Shown: one piece after another, positions 37,801 to 41,875 of the stretch
Numbering within the stretch: position 1 is the stretch's first letter
Layout of the letters: each line of letters begins with the position of its first letter
NCBI RefSeq assembly: GCF_020164595.1
Contig: NZ_JAIQZE010000015.1
Location: 1 to 64,000 of the forward strand
DNA: 64,000 bases
Direction of reading: 5' to 3'
From: Psychroflexus longus
GTDB taxonomy: Bacteria; Bacteroidota; Bacteroidia; Flavobacteriales; Flavobacteriaceae
The notes under the pieces: generated by a model
Database searches by the model: none
Told to the model about the DNA's origin: nothing
What the model saw: only the letters and a program-made list of their open reading frames with translations
Translations under genes and position numbers: made by a program

Positions 37801-38643
37801 TCAATTCGTACTTGAATTATTTATAGTTAACACATTTCCTTTGTTCTGCAAACCAACATAGCCAGACCTGGGATCAGCTATTTCACCTGAGACTGTATTT
37901 TGCTCTATACTTCCAGCATATTCTTCTACGATGTAAGTGCTACTGGTTGCAAAAAAGAGCTTTCTGGCAAGAGTTGATACATTTGAAGTTATCTTAAGAT
38001 GTTGAGGGTTTGCCTGAGTTCCATTTCCACTCATATACAATCCAGAATCGTTCAATCCGCTATTAGTGTCATTTATCACTAGCCCTCCATTGACTTCCAC
38101 ATCACCTTTGCACTCAATATAAAGTGCAGAATTATTTTTGCCATCCTGATACCTCAACTCCCCTCCGTTTATTCTGAAAAGTTCATTTATACGGACTTCA
38201 AGTTGTGGGTTGTTTGAAAAAGTTGTTCTAAAAACGCCTCCAGCATTTAACTCAAATACATCAATATCACCAGCAAAAGTTGTATTTGAATTTTCTGGGA
38301 TATTGACTAAGAAGTTACCGTGGATTATTATGGCTCCAGCCAAATTAAAACCATTGGTTTGGCTTGTTACATTATATACAACAAACGTATTAGGCTGTAT
38401 AAAAACAGTACCAGAAAATGTAGCTGACAAAGGATAATCTGTTGCAGTGTTCCAAGTGGTTCCATCGTATTTTTCCCAGGTACCTGCATCTAGCCAGGGC
38501 TTTGGATTTTGTGAAGTACCACCTACCGACCTATAATCACCTGCTTGCTGGGCATAACCATTAAAGCCCATCAAAAAGATAAGTGAAATTAATGTGAAGG
38601 CCTTCATGTGTATTTGTATAATCTGGAGTAAATGTTTTTTCAT
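37801..38643 (-). CDS. N-terminal portion of the T9SS surface protein
   Basis: 280 codons up to the TGA. Signal peptide, then PKPWLDAGTWEKYDGTTWN and beta-helix-like strands. It lacks a sorting domain, so if translated alone it would be released into the periplasm. It shares frame and style with the following ORF. Confidence 0.6.
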   Translation of the reverse strand: MKKHLLQIIQIHMKAFTLISLIFLMGFNGYAQQAGDYRSVGGTSQNPKPWLDAGTWEKYDGTTWNTATDYPLSATFSGTVFIQPNTFVVYNVTSQTNGFNLAGAIIIHGNFLVNIPENSNTTFAGDIDVFELNAGGVFRTTFSNNPQLEVRINELFRINGGELRYQDGKNNSALYIECKGDVEVNGGLVINDTNSGLNDSGLYMSGNGTQANPQHLKITSNVSTLARKLFFATSSTYIVEEYAGSIEQNTVSGEIADPRSGYVGLQNKGNVLTINNSSTN

Positions 38644-39019: not shown

Positions 39020-39103
39020 ATTTGCATTAAACCTCAAGAGCTTTTTATATTTACCTCAACACTAAATGAGGAGTTTCTCAGGTGAATTAATAACTAAGTG
39101 CTT

Positions 39104-39523
39104 ATGAATGATTTTATAACCTGTACCATCTCCAAACGAGGGAATGGAGTGAAAGCTGATCCTTCTGCAAACTACCATTTAAAGGCAGTTTACAACAGAT
39201 CGATAGGTATGGATGAACTGGCAAGGCGCATCAGTAATAAATGCACCCTAAATACCTCTGATGTAATAGGATGCTTAAATGCGCTTAATGAGGAAATCCT
39301 CTTTCAGTTGAAAGATGGAAATAAAGTTGACTTAGGCTGGCTGGGGTCATTGAAAATAGGCCTTGAAGCCAAAGCCCATTCTTCTCCAATCGACTGTAAA
39401 GTGAGTGACATCAAACGCGTAAAAATCAATTACCAGCCCAACAAAAATTTAAAACGAGAGCTTAAGCATACGACAAATTTCAAGATTGATCCCAAGGCTA
39501 AATTAAAGTATATAGAACCTTAG
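39104..39523 (+). CDS. HU-like DNA-binding protein
   Basis: 139 residues. The layout matches the HU-related proteins of Bacteroidetes: YHLKAVYNRSIGMDELARRIS, CTLNTSDVIGCLNALNEEILFQLKDGNKVDLGWLGSLKIGL, then the segment VKINYQPNKNLKRELK. It has the helix-helix-strand core of HU with a longer beta part and basic C-terminus. Start at ATG 39104; GTG two codons earlier is less likely. A string of inverted repeats lies upstream, hinting at autoregulation. Nucleoid-associated or locus-specific role not known. Confidence 0.75.
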   Translation: MNDFITCTISKRGNGVKADPSANYHLKAVYNRSIGMDELARRISNKCTLNTSDVIGCLNALNEEILFQLKDGNKVDLGWLGSLKIGLEAKAHSSPIDCKVSDIKRVKINYQPNKNLKRELKHTTNFKIDPKAKLKYIEP

Positions 39524-39558
39524 GGTCAAAGTTACTTTATCGATTGAGCTGCTGTACA

Positions 39559-39610
39559 TATCAGGCTTTGTTTGCTCCTCCTCAACTCCGATAGTTATCG
39601 GGGCGAACCT
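39559..39610 (-). repeat. Degenerate tRNA-Asn 3' fragment (third copy)
   Basis: On the minus strand GGTTCG, then CCCCGATAACTATCGG, then AGTTGAGGAGGAGCAAACAAAGCCTGATA. Without the inserted palindrome (core CCGATA-AC-TATCGG, 39588-39601) it aligns with the end of the tRNA-Asn gene plus the start of its terminator. It overlaps the 3' end of the first GIY-YIG gene. Confidence 0.5.
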
Positions 39611-39894
39611 TGGTTGTATTTATATAGTAATTTTATTCTCATCTCAGGATAGATTTTTAAATTCTGAATATAGAGTTTGCTTTTCATCTTTTTGATATGC
39701 TTCTCAACAGCTAAAGCTTGCATTTTAGATGCACATTCTATCTTTAAAAACAATTCCCAATCCTTAGCATTTGAGGTGAATTTATGTGATTCTGCTTGTT
39801 CATGAAACGCCATCCGCTGCTCAATATTTGAAGTATAACCAATGTAGAACCTATTTAATTTTTTAGAAAATAAAATATAAACAAGGTGCTTCAT
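39595..39894 (-). CDS. GIY-YIG nuclease family protein 1
   Basis: 99 residues, single GIY-YIG domain. VYIL near residue 5 and YIGYTSN near 17 form the name-giving motif; the catalytic Arg is in EQRMAFH and the Glu in AVEKHIKKMKS. Length is normal for the YhbQ/UPF0213-like group. The last residues (QGSPR) come from the degenerate tRNA segment at 39559-39610. Start at ATG 39894, 20 bases after a copy of the tRNA terminator. Probably a stand-alone endonuclease; its target is unknown. Confidence 0.85.
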   Translation of the reverse strand: MKHLVYILFSKKLNRFYIGYTSNIEQRMAFHEQAESHKFTSNAKDWELFLKIECASKMQALAVEKHIKKMKSKLYIQNLKIYPEMRIKLLYKYNQGSPR

Positions 39895-39914
39895 CCTAAA
39901 GGTTTATGTAAAAC

Positions 39915-39943
39915 AAAAAAGCCCGATACTTTCGTATCAGGCT
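39915..39943 (-). terminator. Duplicate tRNA terminator
   Basis: Minus-strand hairpin AGCCTGATAC-GAAA-GTATCGGGCT followed by TTTTTT, identical to the one after the intact tRNA-Asn. Confidence 0.7.
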
Positions 39944-39950
39944 TTATTTG

Positions 39951-40024
39951 CTCCCCCTCAAAGACTCGAACTTTGGACCCTCTGATCAATCCCGCACGTG
40001 CGGGACTCTAACCAACTGAGCTAA
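39951..40024 (-). pseudogene. tRNA-Asn pseudogene with palindrome in the anticodon arm
   Basis: Retains the D arm (TTAGCTCAGTTGGTTAGAG), the variable region, T arm and the 3' acceptor strand identical to the intact tRNA-Asn at 40341-40414. The 5' acceptor strand is gone and the anticodon stem-loop is replaced by 19 bases containing the perfect 16-bp palindrome TCCCGCACGTGCGGGA (39990-40005). It cannot fold as a tRNA. It is read as protein by the end of GIY-YIG gene 2. Confidence 0.75.
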
Positions 40025-40297
40025 CTTACCGGTAGGAATGAATTCAGGCTCTAAAAGCTTTAGAAGTAATTGTCTACTCTTTTGCTTTTTAATAAATTTT
40101 TCGACAGACTCTGCTTCGTTTCGTGAAGATCCTGCTTCAAAGACAGCTTTTAAAACCCAAGGTCTGTATTTTGACGTAAATGTATGGAATGAAGAGCTGT
40201 TGTGTTTCTCTAATCGTTTCCAAGGGTCAATTGAAGATCCTGTGTAGTATTTATCAAACTTTTCTGAGTATATGATATAGAAATAAAACATTGGCAT
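39986..40297 (-). CDS. GIY-YIG nuclease family protein 2
   Basis: 103 residues from ATG 40297. GIY-YIG marks: FYIIYS near residue 6 and YYTGSS near 18, Arg in PWKRLEKH, Glu in VEKFIKKQKS. The domain ends at about residue 85; the rest (GKLAQLVRVPHVRD) is the translation of the tRNA pseudogene, stopping at a TGA inside it. The start is only 8 bases beyond the tRNA terminator's T run, so expression probably depends on read-through. A distant paralogue of protein 1. Confidence 0.8.
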   Translation of the reverse strand: MPMFYFYIIYSEKFDKYYTGSSIDPWKRLEKHNSSSFHTFTSKYRPWVLKAVFEAGSSRNEAESVEKFIKKQKSRQLLLKLLEPEFIPTGKLAQLVRVPHVRD

Positions 40298-40304
40298 CGA
40301 TAAC

Positions 40305-40333
40305 AAAAAAGCCCGATACTTTCGTATCAGGCT
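40305..40333 (-). terminator. tRNA-Asn terminator
   Basis: Minus-strand stem AGCCTGATAC/GTATCGGGCT (one mismatch) with GAAA loop and T6 run, 7 bases after the tRNA. Confidence 0.8.
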
Positions 40334-40340
40334 TTATTTG

Positions 40341-40414
40341 CTCCCCCTCAAAGACTCGAACTTTGGACCCTCTGATTAACAGTCAGATGCTCTAACCAAC
40401 TGAGCTAAGGGGGA
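40341..40414 (-). tRNA. tRNA-Asn (GTT)
   Basis: 74 nt. Minus strand: acceptor TCCCCCT/AGGGGGA with discriminator G, D arm GCTC/GAGC, anticodon stem TCTGA/TCAGA with loop CTGTTAA (anticodon GTT), T arm CAAAG-TTCGAGT-CTTTG. CCA is not encoded. Followed by a terminator and the GIY-YIG modules. Confidence 0.95.
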
Positions 40415-40510
40415 ATTTATATGATGTAATGAACTGTTGTGTTTTGCGGTTGCAAATATAAACCAATATTTAGTTTCACAAAACGTTTTTTTAAAAAAAT
40501 GTTGAAATAA

Positions 40511-41875
40511 TTACTCTCCTGTCAGCCAGCGATAGACGTCGTTTCCATTGGCAAACAAGACCAAAGCTATAAGTATAAAGAAACCAATCATTTGGGCATA
40601 TTCCATCACTTTTTCATTAGGCTTACGCCCGGAGATCATCTCATAAAGCAGGAACATGACATGCCCACCATCCAAAGCTGGAATAGGTAAAATGTTCATG
40701 AATGCAAGAATAATCGAGATAAACGCTGTAGTGGTCCAGAAGGCTTTCCAGTCCCAAGCATCAGGAAACAAACTTCCTATGGCTCCGAAACCTCCTACTT
40801 GTGTAGCTCCTTTCTTAGTAAATACATATTTGAATTGTGCGACGTAATCATGGAGTGTCCAGTAAGCAAAATCAAATCCAGCACCTATGCTTTCTCCGAA
40901 GCTGTAAGACTTAGTTAAAATGTCATCTGCGCTTATAGCTGAAGTAATGACTCCTATAAGACCATCTTCATCTGCTGTAACGTTTACTTTACCTAGTCCT
41001 TCTGTAGCCAATTCTCTATCCAGTCCAGGATTTTCCTGAGGGGCACTCGTATAAGTTACCTCAACAGGAACACCTTTATTATCTTGTATTTTTTTTCTGA
41101 ATTCATGCCAGTAATTGATCTTTTCACCATTAACGGAGGTAATCATATCTCCTTTTTTAAGCCCGGCCTTATCTGCAGGAGAATCTGCCAATACGCTATC
41201 AATCATAGGTTTTTTAATCGGAGAAAATGGCTGAAAACTACCGGATTGGAACAACTGCTGACCCATATCCTCAGGAATCGATAAGGTTTCTGAATTACCA
41301 GTTGGGTGCTCAACTTCTACTGTACTCACATCTCTGAGCAATAAATACTTATTGATGTCGATCTGACTTTGCAGAGGTTCTCCATTAACGCTTAAAATTT
41401 TGTCACCATCCATAAAACCGTAATCTTTCATAATTTCGGCGCTTTCAAGACCGTTATCAAAAACTTTTGGAGACAAATAGTTTTCACCATAAACGAAAAG
41501 AACCATCATATAAATGAGGAATCCTAATACGATGTTGACAGTCACACCGCCCAACATAATGATGAGTCGTTGCCAAGCTGGCTTACTACGAAATTCCCAA
41601 GGCTCAGGCGGCTTCGCCATTTGCTCTCTGTCCATACTCTCGTCGATCATCCCAGATATTTTCACATAACCACCAAGTGGTAACCAGCCAATACCATAAA
41701 CCGTATCACCAATTTTCTTTTTGAAGAGTGAGAACTTCACATCAAAAAACAAATAGAATTTCTCTACTCGGGTTTTAAAGAGTTTTGCCGGGATAAAATG
41801 ACCTAACTCGTGTAATACAATAAGTATAGATAAACTCAAAAGGAGTTGAACTGCTTTGATAAAAAATGGATCCAT
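40511..41875 (-). CDS. rseP: RseP-type site-2 protease
   Basis: 454 residues. Zinc site HELGHF at residues ~22-27 in the first membrane helix; conserved GYVKISGM; two PDZ-like regions (about 135-200 and 215-265, with SPADKAGLKKGDMI); LDGGHVMFLLYE third ligand near the C-terminal helices. Intramembrane protease that cuts anti-sigma factors or leftover signal peptides. It is about the usual length. A -7 box lies upstream. Its neighbour on the left is the tRNA-Asn. Confidence 0.94.
   Translation of the reverse strand: MDPFFIKAVQLLLSLSILIVLHELGHFIPAKLFKTRVEKFYLFFDVKFSLFKKKIGDTVYGIGWLPLGGYVKISGMIDESMDREQMAKPPEPWEFRSKPAWQRLIIMLGGVTVNIVLGFLIYMMVLFVYGENYLSPKVFDNGLESAEIMKDYGFMDGDKILSVNGEPLQSQIDINKYLLLRDVSTVEVEHPTGNSETLSIPEDMGQQLFQSGSFQPFSPIKKPMIDSVLADSPADKAGLKKGDMITSVNGEKINYWHEFRKKIQDNKGVPVEVTYTSAPQENPGLDRELATEGLGKVNVTADEDGLIGVITSAISADDILTKSYSFGESIGAGFDFAYWTLHDYVAQFKYVFTKKGATQVGGFGAIGSLFPDAWDWKAFWTTTAFISIILAFMNILPIPALDGGHVMFLLYEMISGRKPNEKVMEYAQMIGFFILIALVLFANGNDVYRWLTGE

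Follow-up and report, generated by a model that had tools for sequence, protein, structure and literature searches.

Evidence for mobile, end-replacing GIY-YIG nuclease cassettes at bacterial tRNA genes

Two modules of about 390 bp each lie 3′ of a tRNA-Asn gene in Psychroflexus longus, and we are highly confident that they belong to a group of mobile cassettes that replace the ends of tRNA genes. Both the mobility and the end replacement are well supported by sequence comparison, which establishes the anatomy of the cassettes, the existence of filled and empty sites, the displacement of native ends, spread between species, growth in tandem, and purifying selection on the ORFs. As a whole, the explanation that we think probable is that the cassettes are minimal selfish elements that specialise on tRNA genes and are moved by a nuclease-driven break and its repair; we are slightly less sure of nuclease-driven homing as the motor, which is inferred in the absence of cleavage data.

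Each cassette is built from a tRNA 3′ part followed by a terminator and a GIY-YIG nuclease ORF, and it ends in a hairpin. In the explanation that we favour, it would enter within a tRNA arm (the anticodon arm or the T loop), at a point that is mostly constant for each nuclease lineage. The host 5′ part and the incoming 3′ part would together form a complete working tRNA, and the native 3′ part with its native terminator would be pushed downstream, behind the hairpin. A mirror form brings a 5′ part instead.

The array beside tRNA-Asn

The window, by which we mean the whole stretch of 64,000 nucleotides that was analysed, contains a sole tRNA, tRNA-Asn(GTT), as called by ARAGORN. The order on the minus strand is an RseP-like peptidase gene (40511-41875), tRNA-Asn, a terminator, gene 2, a broken tRNA copy, a second terminator, gene 1 and a tRNA remnant, with the parts of the array as follows.

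40340..40414, minus strand: intact tRNA-Asn(GTT), the target gene (ARAGORN; Rfam RF00005, 70.5 bits)
40302..40339, minus strand: terminator of cassette 2, directly 3′ of the tRNA (stem-loop 40308-40335)
39986..40306, minus strand: GIY-YIG ORF of cassette 2 (gene 2), 106 aa (PF01541, E 1.2e-14)
40006..40024, minus strand: 5′ piece (D arm) of the displaced tRNA-Asn copy of cassette 2 (direct repeat; alignment with the copy in genome G007)
39990..40005, minus strand: junction hairpin of cassette 2, TCCCGCACGTGCGGGA, inside the anticodon arm (sequence; covariation in the cassette type; hairpin in the DNA fold)
39950..39989, minus strand: 3′ half of the displaced tRNA-Asn copy of cassette 2, tRNA positions 36-75 (repeat; G007 alignment; junction table)
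39912..39949, minus strand: second terminator, equal in sequence to 40302-40339 (direct repeat)
39595..39894, minus strand: GIY-YIG ORF of cassette 1 (gene 1), 99 aa (Pfam, E 5.6e-15)
39604..39616, minus strand: T-arm 5′ remnant of the second displaced tRNA-Asn copy (sequence; junction table)
39586..39603, minus strand: junction hairpin of cassette 1, set in the T loop (imperfect in the window, perfect in G007)
39574..39585, minus strand: 3′ end of the second displaced tRNA-Asn copy, from tRNA position 64 (direct repeat; junction table)
39559..39573, minus strand: truncated terminator (about half) at the right edge of the array (repeat; complete in the related genome G007)

The first-pass annotation had described a tRNA-Asn gene, terminators, two GIY-YIG genes and damaged tRNA pieces, and all of these elements are present. 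The repeat that it reported over the terminator and the tRNA 3′ half is 78 nt long with one mismatch (39912-39989 versus 40302-40379), and the two nuclease genes are indeed distant relatives, with 29-34% protein identity. It had also noted the lack of an integrase, and a Pfam search of the eight ORFs around the site in the window finds no integrase, recombinase or transposase, the remaining short ORFs being outside this search. The two terminators of G007, a related genome, differ from each other, and the exact repeat in the window may therefore be secondary, perhaps the result of gene conversion that homogenised the copies.

Absent from that description is a hairpin that sits exactly at the break in both damaged tRNA-Asn copies. 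In the copy at the end of gene 2 the 5′ strand of the anticodon arm and part of the loop are replaced by TCCCGCACGTGCGGGA, and at the end of gene 1 a second hairpin, CCCCGATAACTATCGG(AG), lies within the T-arm remnant (39574-39616). Both ORFs terminate within the hairpin/tRNA scar: gene 2, whose listed start is a TTG with ATG codons downstream, has its stop inside the damaged tRNA copy, and the stop codon of gene 1 is within the junction hairpin of cassette 1.

The main flanking ORFs are assigned by Pfam to HU-HIG, Por secretion tail, peptidase M50 (RseP-like), SCO1 and UbiA, and the ORF at 37801-38643 has no Pfam match. The HU-HIG type DNA-binding protein (39098-39523; PF18291, E 4.1e-25) is encoded directly beyond the array. 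A group I intron in the tRNA was considered and rejected, because a search of 39400-40600 against Rfam gave no intron match even at E values up to 1.

Occurrence, filled and empty sites, and spread

Matches to gene 2 are found in 32 of 60 genomes of relatives, and 22 of the 30 best loci among these have a same-strand tRNA, of many kinds, within 400 bp. An alignment search across the phylum (E <= 1e-6) recovers relatives of the nuclease in 256 of 392 Bacteroidota genomes, a match in this search indicating a nuclease relative and being by itself no proof of a tRNA cassette. Among the best 30 loci of the phylum search, the window's own included, a tRNA lies within 400 bp in 25, on the same strand in 25/25, and three of the five loci lacking a tRNA are no more than about 430 bases from where their stretch ends. 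In several genomes the matches form tandem rows at intervals of about 312-381 bp. Scanning named genomes yielded 244 confirmed places, of which 80 were kept; these include loci in Psychroflexus, Pedobacter, Flavobacterium, Prolixibacter, Marinifilum, Chitinophagales and Fodinibius. An intact tRNA is present within 400 bp in 64 of the 80, on the same strand in all 64 and upstream in 60. Asn accounts for 43 of these 64 tRNA-linked loci, a dominance that arises because the scan was seeded with gene-2 relatives. Loci without an adjoining tRNA, which count against the explanation, number 16 of 80 in the named genomes, 5 of 30 among the best of the phylum search and 8 of 30 among the best in relatives, and some of them are at contig ends.

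The first-pass annotation had reasoned that modules beside different tRNAs, or in variable copy number, would support mobility. Both are found: tRNAs for 15 amino acids have such a nuclease ORF no more than 400 bp away, and there are up to eight copies in tandem. Near-identical tandem units occur at loci L071 and L076 and in genomes G280 and G343. The first of these, L071:1880-4900 (genome G012), has eight GIY-YIG units spaced about 365 bp apart, with remnants resembling tRNA-Met and with second hairpins located in the T arm; its 6.5-kb stretch yields no call of an intact tRNA, making it an orphan array.

Three loci (L213, L215 and L218), from MAGs titled Patescibacteria group, Magasanikbacteria and Paceibacter, have the mirror form at tRNA-Ser(GGA) and tRNA-Thr(TGT). 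Because these three candidate-phylum (Patescibacteria-type) MAGs carry it, the element may not be confined to Bacteroidota. We also note that the ARAGORN calls of tRNA-SeC(tca) at L028:1429-1508 and tRNA-Phe(aaa) at L034:1735-1805 resemble hairpin-broken copies of the neighbouring tRNA-Val and tRNA-Arg, respectively, and are likely to be false, although L034 was judged without close inspection.

The P. longus genome has 34 tRNA matches and 10 PF01541 matches; two of the latter are in long open frames and do not match our custom profile, leaving eight small GIY-YIG genes. Three of the eight are at tRNAs, two being those of the window array and one overlapping the 5′ end of tRNA-Arg(TCG), and the other five (L001-L005) have no tRNA in their 1.5-kb flanks. 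As judged by eye, L002, L004 and L005 seem to be embedded in repeated sequence, and the link of small GIY-YIG genes to dispersed repeats may be a wider one.

Other homes for the cassette were considered. A search of 50,697 phage records gives no match to gene 2, which also has no confirmed viral contig and no PHROGs match, and gene 1 reaches E 0.0035 in PHROGs to a homing endonuclease family. Although 143 viral-contig stretches fit the pattern, none was confirmed, and a phage home was rejected. A plasmid home was likewise set aside, cassette-2 DNA being without a match in plasmids in a search at the DNA level only, as was a defence system, since PADLOC matched gene 1 at no better than E 0.005-0.006 and gene 2 not at all.

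A comparison of empty and filled sites had been proposed as a check, and both states are present at orthologous positions of two kinds. At the rseP/tRNA-Asn site 30 loci were fetched, of which 26 show tRNA-Asn and four have no tRNA. Nine are filled, with a nuclease within 1.5 kb, including L049, in which the ORF is broken, and L052, which retains just a 24-bit remnant; 17 have no nuclease, and 15 of these are informative, the exceptions being L051, in which the tRNAs lie on the opposite side, and L065, in which 99 bp remain. At the Flavobacterium tRNA-Ala(GGC), the best 30 of 141 matching genomes comprise 11 filled alleles, 18 empty ones, and one (L256) that is not comparable, its tRNA-Ala being on the opposite strand relative to the flanking gene.

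In the filled Flavobacterium alleles the cassette terminator, mostly AAATACCC...GGGTATTT, stands directly 3′ of the tRNA, and in 8 of the 11 a native-type terminator, as in the empty alleles, lies behind the displaced tRNA 3′ end. These eight terminators score 23.5-40 against the best empty allele and 9-16 against their own cassette terminator, which agrees with the earlier proposal that insertion regenerates the tRNA end. In L239 and L250 a cassette-type terminator is behind the displaced end, and no displaced tRNA end was found in L234. Three alleles (L227, L228 and L237) have the T stem ATCGG/CCGAT in the working tRNA and ACCGG/CCGGT, a compensated pair, in the displaced end, as expected of a host/cassette chimera. 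This difference alone is no proof of chimerism, since empty alleles show both T stems, and L242, L250, L251 and L255 are uninformative on the point because their two 3′ halves differ by 0-1 base.

The flanks and the cassettes have diverged to different extents. Between the genome of the window (G000) and G007 identity is 78.4% (1032/1317) upstream, 96.8% (759/784) across the two-cassette island and 42.5% beyond it, and between G015 and G025 it is 72.9% upstream and 91.5% in the island; G000 and G015 are 90.9% identical upstream, and their cassettes are unlike at 57.4%. A two-cassette island common to two species, contrary to the divergence of the flanks, supports spread between species. The orthologous filled and empty alleles, the varied tRNAs and copy numbers, and this shared island together uphold the mobility that the first-pass annotation had inferred. 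Its further suggestion, of an element moved by its own nuclease, stays an inference.

Break points, hairpins and the motor of movement

We surveyed the breaks in 158 distinct cassettes with a tRNA upstream, keeping the 132 with a tRNA 3′ homology score >= 24 and leaving out 26 for weak tRNA homology; because array copies are included, not all of these are independent. A junction hairpin, defined as perfect, with an arm of 6 or more and a loop of 8 or less, just before homology resumes, is found at 110 of the 132 breaks, versus 9.6% of 4000 random windows from the same loci; 22 of the breaks have no perfect hairpin. The breaks are mainly within tRNA arms, with the hairpin often in place of an arm, and their position mostly recurs within a lineage, with exceptions in each: tRNA position 36 for Asn/gene 2, 64 for Asn/gene 1, 62 for Phe, 45-47 for Ala, 43-47 for Val and Arg(TCT), and 41-46 for Met.

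For the gene-2 type, hairpins were selected on flanking sequence and on a length of 16-18, irrespective of palindromy, giving 30 cassettes with 17 distinct 16-mers. Among the outer five pairs four are invariant and one is kept in 15/17, and the next two pairs show three pair types each with 32 of 34 cells paired, versus a mean of 13.7 and a maximum of 26 in 2000 shuffles. By this measure the junction hairpin covaries.

The mirror form, in which the tRNA is downstream, is represented by 11 loci with the order displaced tRNA 5′ fragment, G+C-rich stretch, nuclease, intact tRNA, and a perfect hairpin is present in the G+C-rich stretch of seven of them, a count without a random control. The hairpin is at the broken side in both topologies, and no such hairpin was seen at the seamless join of the working tRNA halves.

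Upstream of tRNA-Asn at L074:1129-1455 and L089:963-1211 are tandem units of ~76-86 bp, four in L074 and three in L089, each with a tRNA-Asn 5′ part, a TCCCG hairpin and a shortened 3′ part, and no nuclease gene between them; these are possible miniature, non-autonomous relatives. That the hairpin is a general dispersed repeat was rejected, TCCCGN6CGGGA occurring at six places in G000, only one of them at a cassette.

Both nuclease genes are GIY-YIG by Pfam, with a weaker T5orf172 match for gene 1. In an alignment of 32 sequences Y21, G23, R31 and H35 are invariant and Y8, Y10 and E69 nearly so, which we take to be the hallmark catalytic residues of GIY-YIG enzymes (Tyr, Tyr-x-Gly, Arg, His and Glu). 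The median dN/dS of the domain is 0.19 for Asn/gene 2 (22 pairs), 0.089 for the Ala set (23 pairs), 0.152 for the eight-unit Met array (28 pairs) and 0.38 for the Phe set (6 pairs), and on these estimates the ORFs are under purifying selection. In an AlphaFold2 model (mean pLDDT 90.4) the predicted gene 2 protein looks like a bare GIY-YIG core. Among solved folds SLX1 comes closest, accounting for the only two matches that reach E <= 0.001 (TM-score by query length 0.56-0.57); HIGLE and UPF0213 follow, and I-TevI is a much poorer match. I-TevI has a separate DNA-binding part, and because the bare core is without it the sequence specificity of the nuclease is doubtful. SLX1 processes branched DNA, and as the core is nearest to SLX1 a structure-specific nuclease remains possible.

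The nuclease clades track tRNA isotype. A FastTree phylogeny of 197 domains (76 columns, identical proteins merged, many open forks) was labelled by the closest tRNA on the same strand up to 3 kb away. With each locus entered once there are 122 rows with 23 labels, two of which (SeC and Phe(aaa)) are the likely false calls on broken copies. There are 32 label changes for the 122 rows, versus a minimum of 63 and a mean of 66.8 in 200 shuffles, and without Asn 28 changes for 69 rows versus a shuffle minimum of 45. We count this tracking in favour of the explanation, with the reservation that it may reflect nuclease specificity or just the homology of the carried tRNA half, as recombination homology alone could produce it.

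We favour break-induced copying into tRNA genes because the anatomy is like that of the fungal mORFs, and the enzyme class and target are like those of phage SegB, both of which are compared below. The nuclease would break a tRNA allele that is empty (or unequal), and the cassette would be copied in as the break undergoes homologous repair from incoming DNA that carries it, the tRNA halves serving as arms; cuts at repeated tRNA copies would give rise to tandem arrays. Homing requires that the target be lost, and no such loss shows in the tRNA sequence. The displaced copy is hairpin-broken in 110 of the 132 cassettes, though the working tRNA can match that of empty alleles, being identical between filled L041 and empty L043 (75/75, Asn) and between filled L234 and empty L236 (Ala). 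No consistent tRNA difference was seen by eye across 37 Ala and 42 Asn loci, and target immunity through an altered tRNA sequence was therefore dropped, filled and empty tRNA genes being capable of identity. Since filled and empty alleles may have the same working tRNA, a sequence-specific nuclease should keep cutting its own host. Low expression, repair from a sister copy, recognition beyond the tRNA, or recognition of structure could each answer this difficulty, and the tandem arrays may be a product of self-cutting.

The rival that survives best, and which we regard as unlikely without dismissing it, is hairpin-directed recombination, in which an SLX1-like structure-specific nuclease would act on the TCCCG...CGGGA hairpin and folded-out tRNA arms; hairpins would be exchanged, and the cassette would move through a single-stranded or branched intermediate and not by sequence-specific homing. 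The presence of the hairpin at the broken side in both topologies, its nearly invariant outer 5 bp with two covarying pairs beyond, the concentration of breaks in tRNA arms that it often replaces, and SLX1 among the best fold relatives are all in keeping with such a process. It does not readily accommodate the hairpin-free join of the working tRNA halves or the five similar hairpins in G000 that have no cassettes, and the structural argument rests on just two fold matches reaching E 0.001, with the TM-scores given above. A broader claim, which we find less doubtful than this rival and yet put forward only tentatively, is that there is a previously undescribed, phylum-wide class of mobile element of ~310-390 bp in which a structure-specific mini-nuclease and a covarying terminal hairpin carry a cassette between tRNA genes by swapping the hairpin for a tRNA arm, many Bacteroidota having working tRNA genes that are host/cassette mosaics.

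Tandem duplication of a tRNA block followed by decay, with passive exchange by homologous recombination and the nuclease as a bystander, seems to us improbable. Native-type terminators behind the displaced ends, a cassette island far less diverged than its flank, and purifying selection on the nuclease ORFs all stand against it, even though arrays of near-identical units (L071, L076, G280 and G343), an exact repeat in the window that fits local homogenisation, the broken ORF of L049, and the two loci with nuclease-less tRNA/hairpin units speak for it. More improbable still is a host function in which the nuclease amplifies or repairs tRNA genes against tRNA-cutting toxins or phage defences, for although SegB offers a precedent in phage T6, and the tandem arrays and purifying selection would suit it, the extra tRNA copies should add no tRNA dose because they are broken by the hairpin, PADLOC matches are lacking for gene 2 and weak for gene 1 (E 0.005 or more), and presence is patchy.

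Significance and relation to known systems

If nuclease-driven movement of end-replacing cassettes is correct, these are very small bacterial mobile elements that spare an essential target by supplying a spare half, and working tRNA genes can be horizontally acquired mosaics. It would account for small GIY-YIG genes beside tRNAs and for some false tRNA calls, and would extend to bacterial chromosomes the logic of mORFs and homing that is known in fungal mitochondria and phages. Cassette movement can be tested directly with the filled/empty pairs. No title or abstract opening among the search matches listed names such bacterial tRNA cassettes, most subscription papers and preprints being outside the scope of that search.

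Integrative elements that insert at tRNA 3′ ends use a tyrosine integrase, and the gene is made whole again by a tRNA 3′ end that comes with the insert. The cassettes are similar in supplying a tRNA 3′ end with which the gene is restored, but differ in their size of about 310-390 bp, in the hairpin at the break, and in that no integrase was found at the window site. REP/RAYT systems, as presented in the portion available of one account, likewise link short palindromes to a nuclease gene (PMC3733652); the cassettes differ in using GIY-YIG and not a tyrosine (HUH) transposase, and in being tied to tRNA genes. According to the same portion, CGTC-type repeats, in a list that includes G. forsetii, are apparently without a dedicated transposase (PMC3733652).

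The SegB enzyme of phages T4 and T6 is, in the accessible sections of two papers, a free-standing GIY-YIG nuclease beside tRNAs of many isotypes that cuts within tRNA genes (PMC13096335, PMC2988022). Its cut motif is given there as RAWTSGAAC and it is needed for tandem amplification (PMC13096335), which proceeds via microhomology shared by the 5′ end of the tRNA and the 3′ end of the nuclease gene (PMC13096335, PMC2988022). By our own reading, the reverse complement of the motif, GTTCSAWTY, is the T-loop sequence, where the T-loop cassettes break. The GIY-YIG class, the inferred tRNA gene target and the tandem copies of the cassettes resemble what is described for SegB; SegB differs in being phage-borne, and those sections describe no end-replacing cassette or junction hairpin for it (PMC13096335, PMC2988022).

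The closest likeness in anatomy is to the mORFs of fungal mitochondria (Allomyces atp6; Glomus atp6, atp9, cox2 and nad3), in which, from the part of the source at hand, a foreign gene 3′ end and an endonuclease ORF are inserted together (PMC3630166). The hybrid gene is functional, the native 3′ end is displaced downstream, the elements spread horizontally, and the Glomus atp9 case is GIY-YIG, again on that partial text (PMC3630166). The cassettes similarly bring their own tRNA 3′ end with an endonuclease ORF and displace the native end. The mORFs reside in mitochondrial protein genes, whereas the cassettes reside in bacterial chromosomal tRNA genes, and the same part of the source describes no conserved junction hairpin, tandem arrays or isotype-specific lineages for mORFs (PMC3630166). 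What is new over mORF-like end replacement is therefore the tRNA gene target, the conserved junction hairpin and the isotype-bound lineages.
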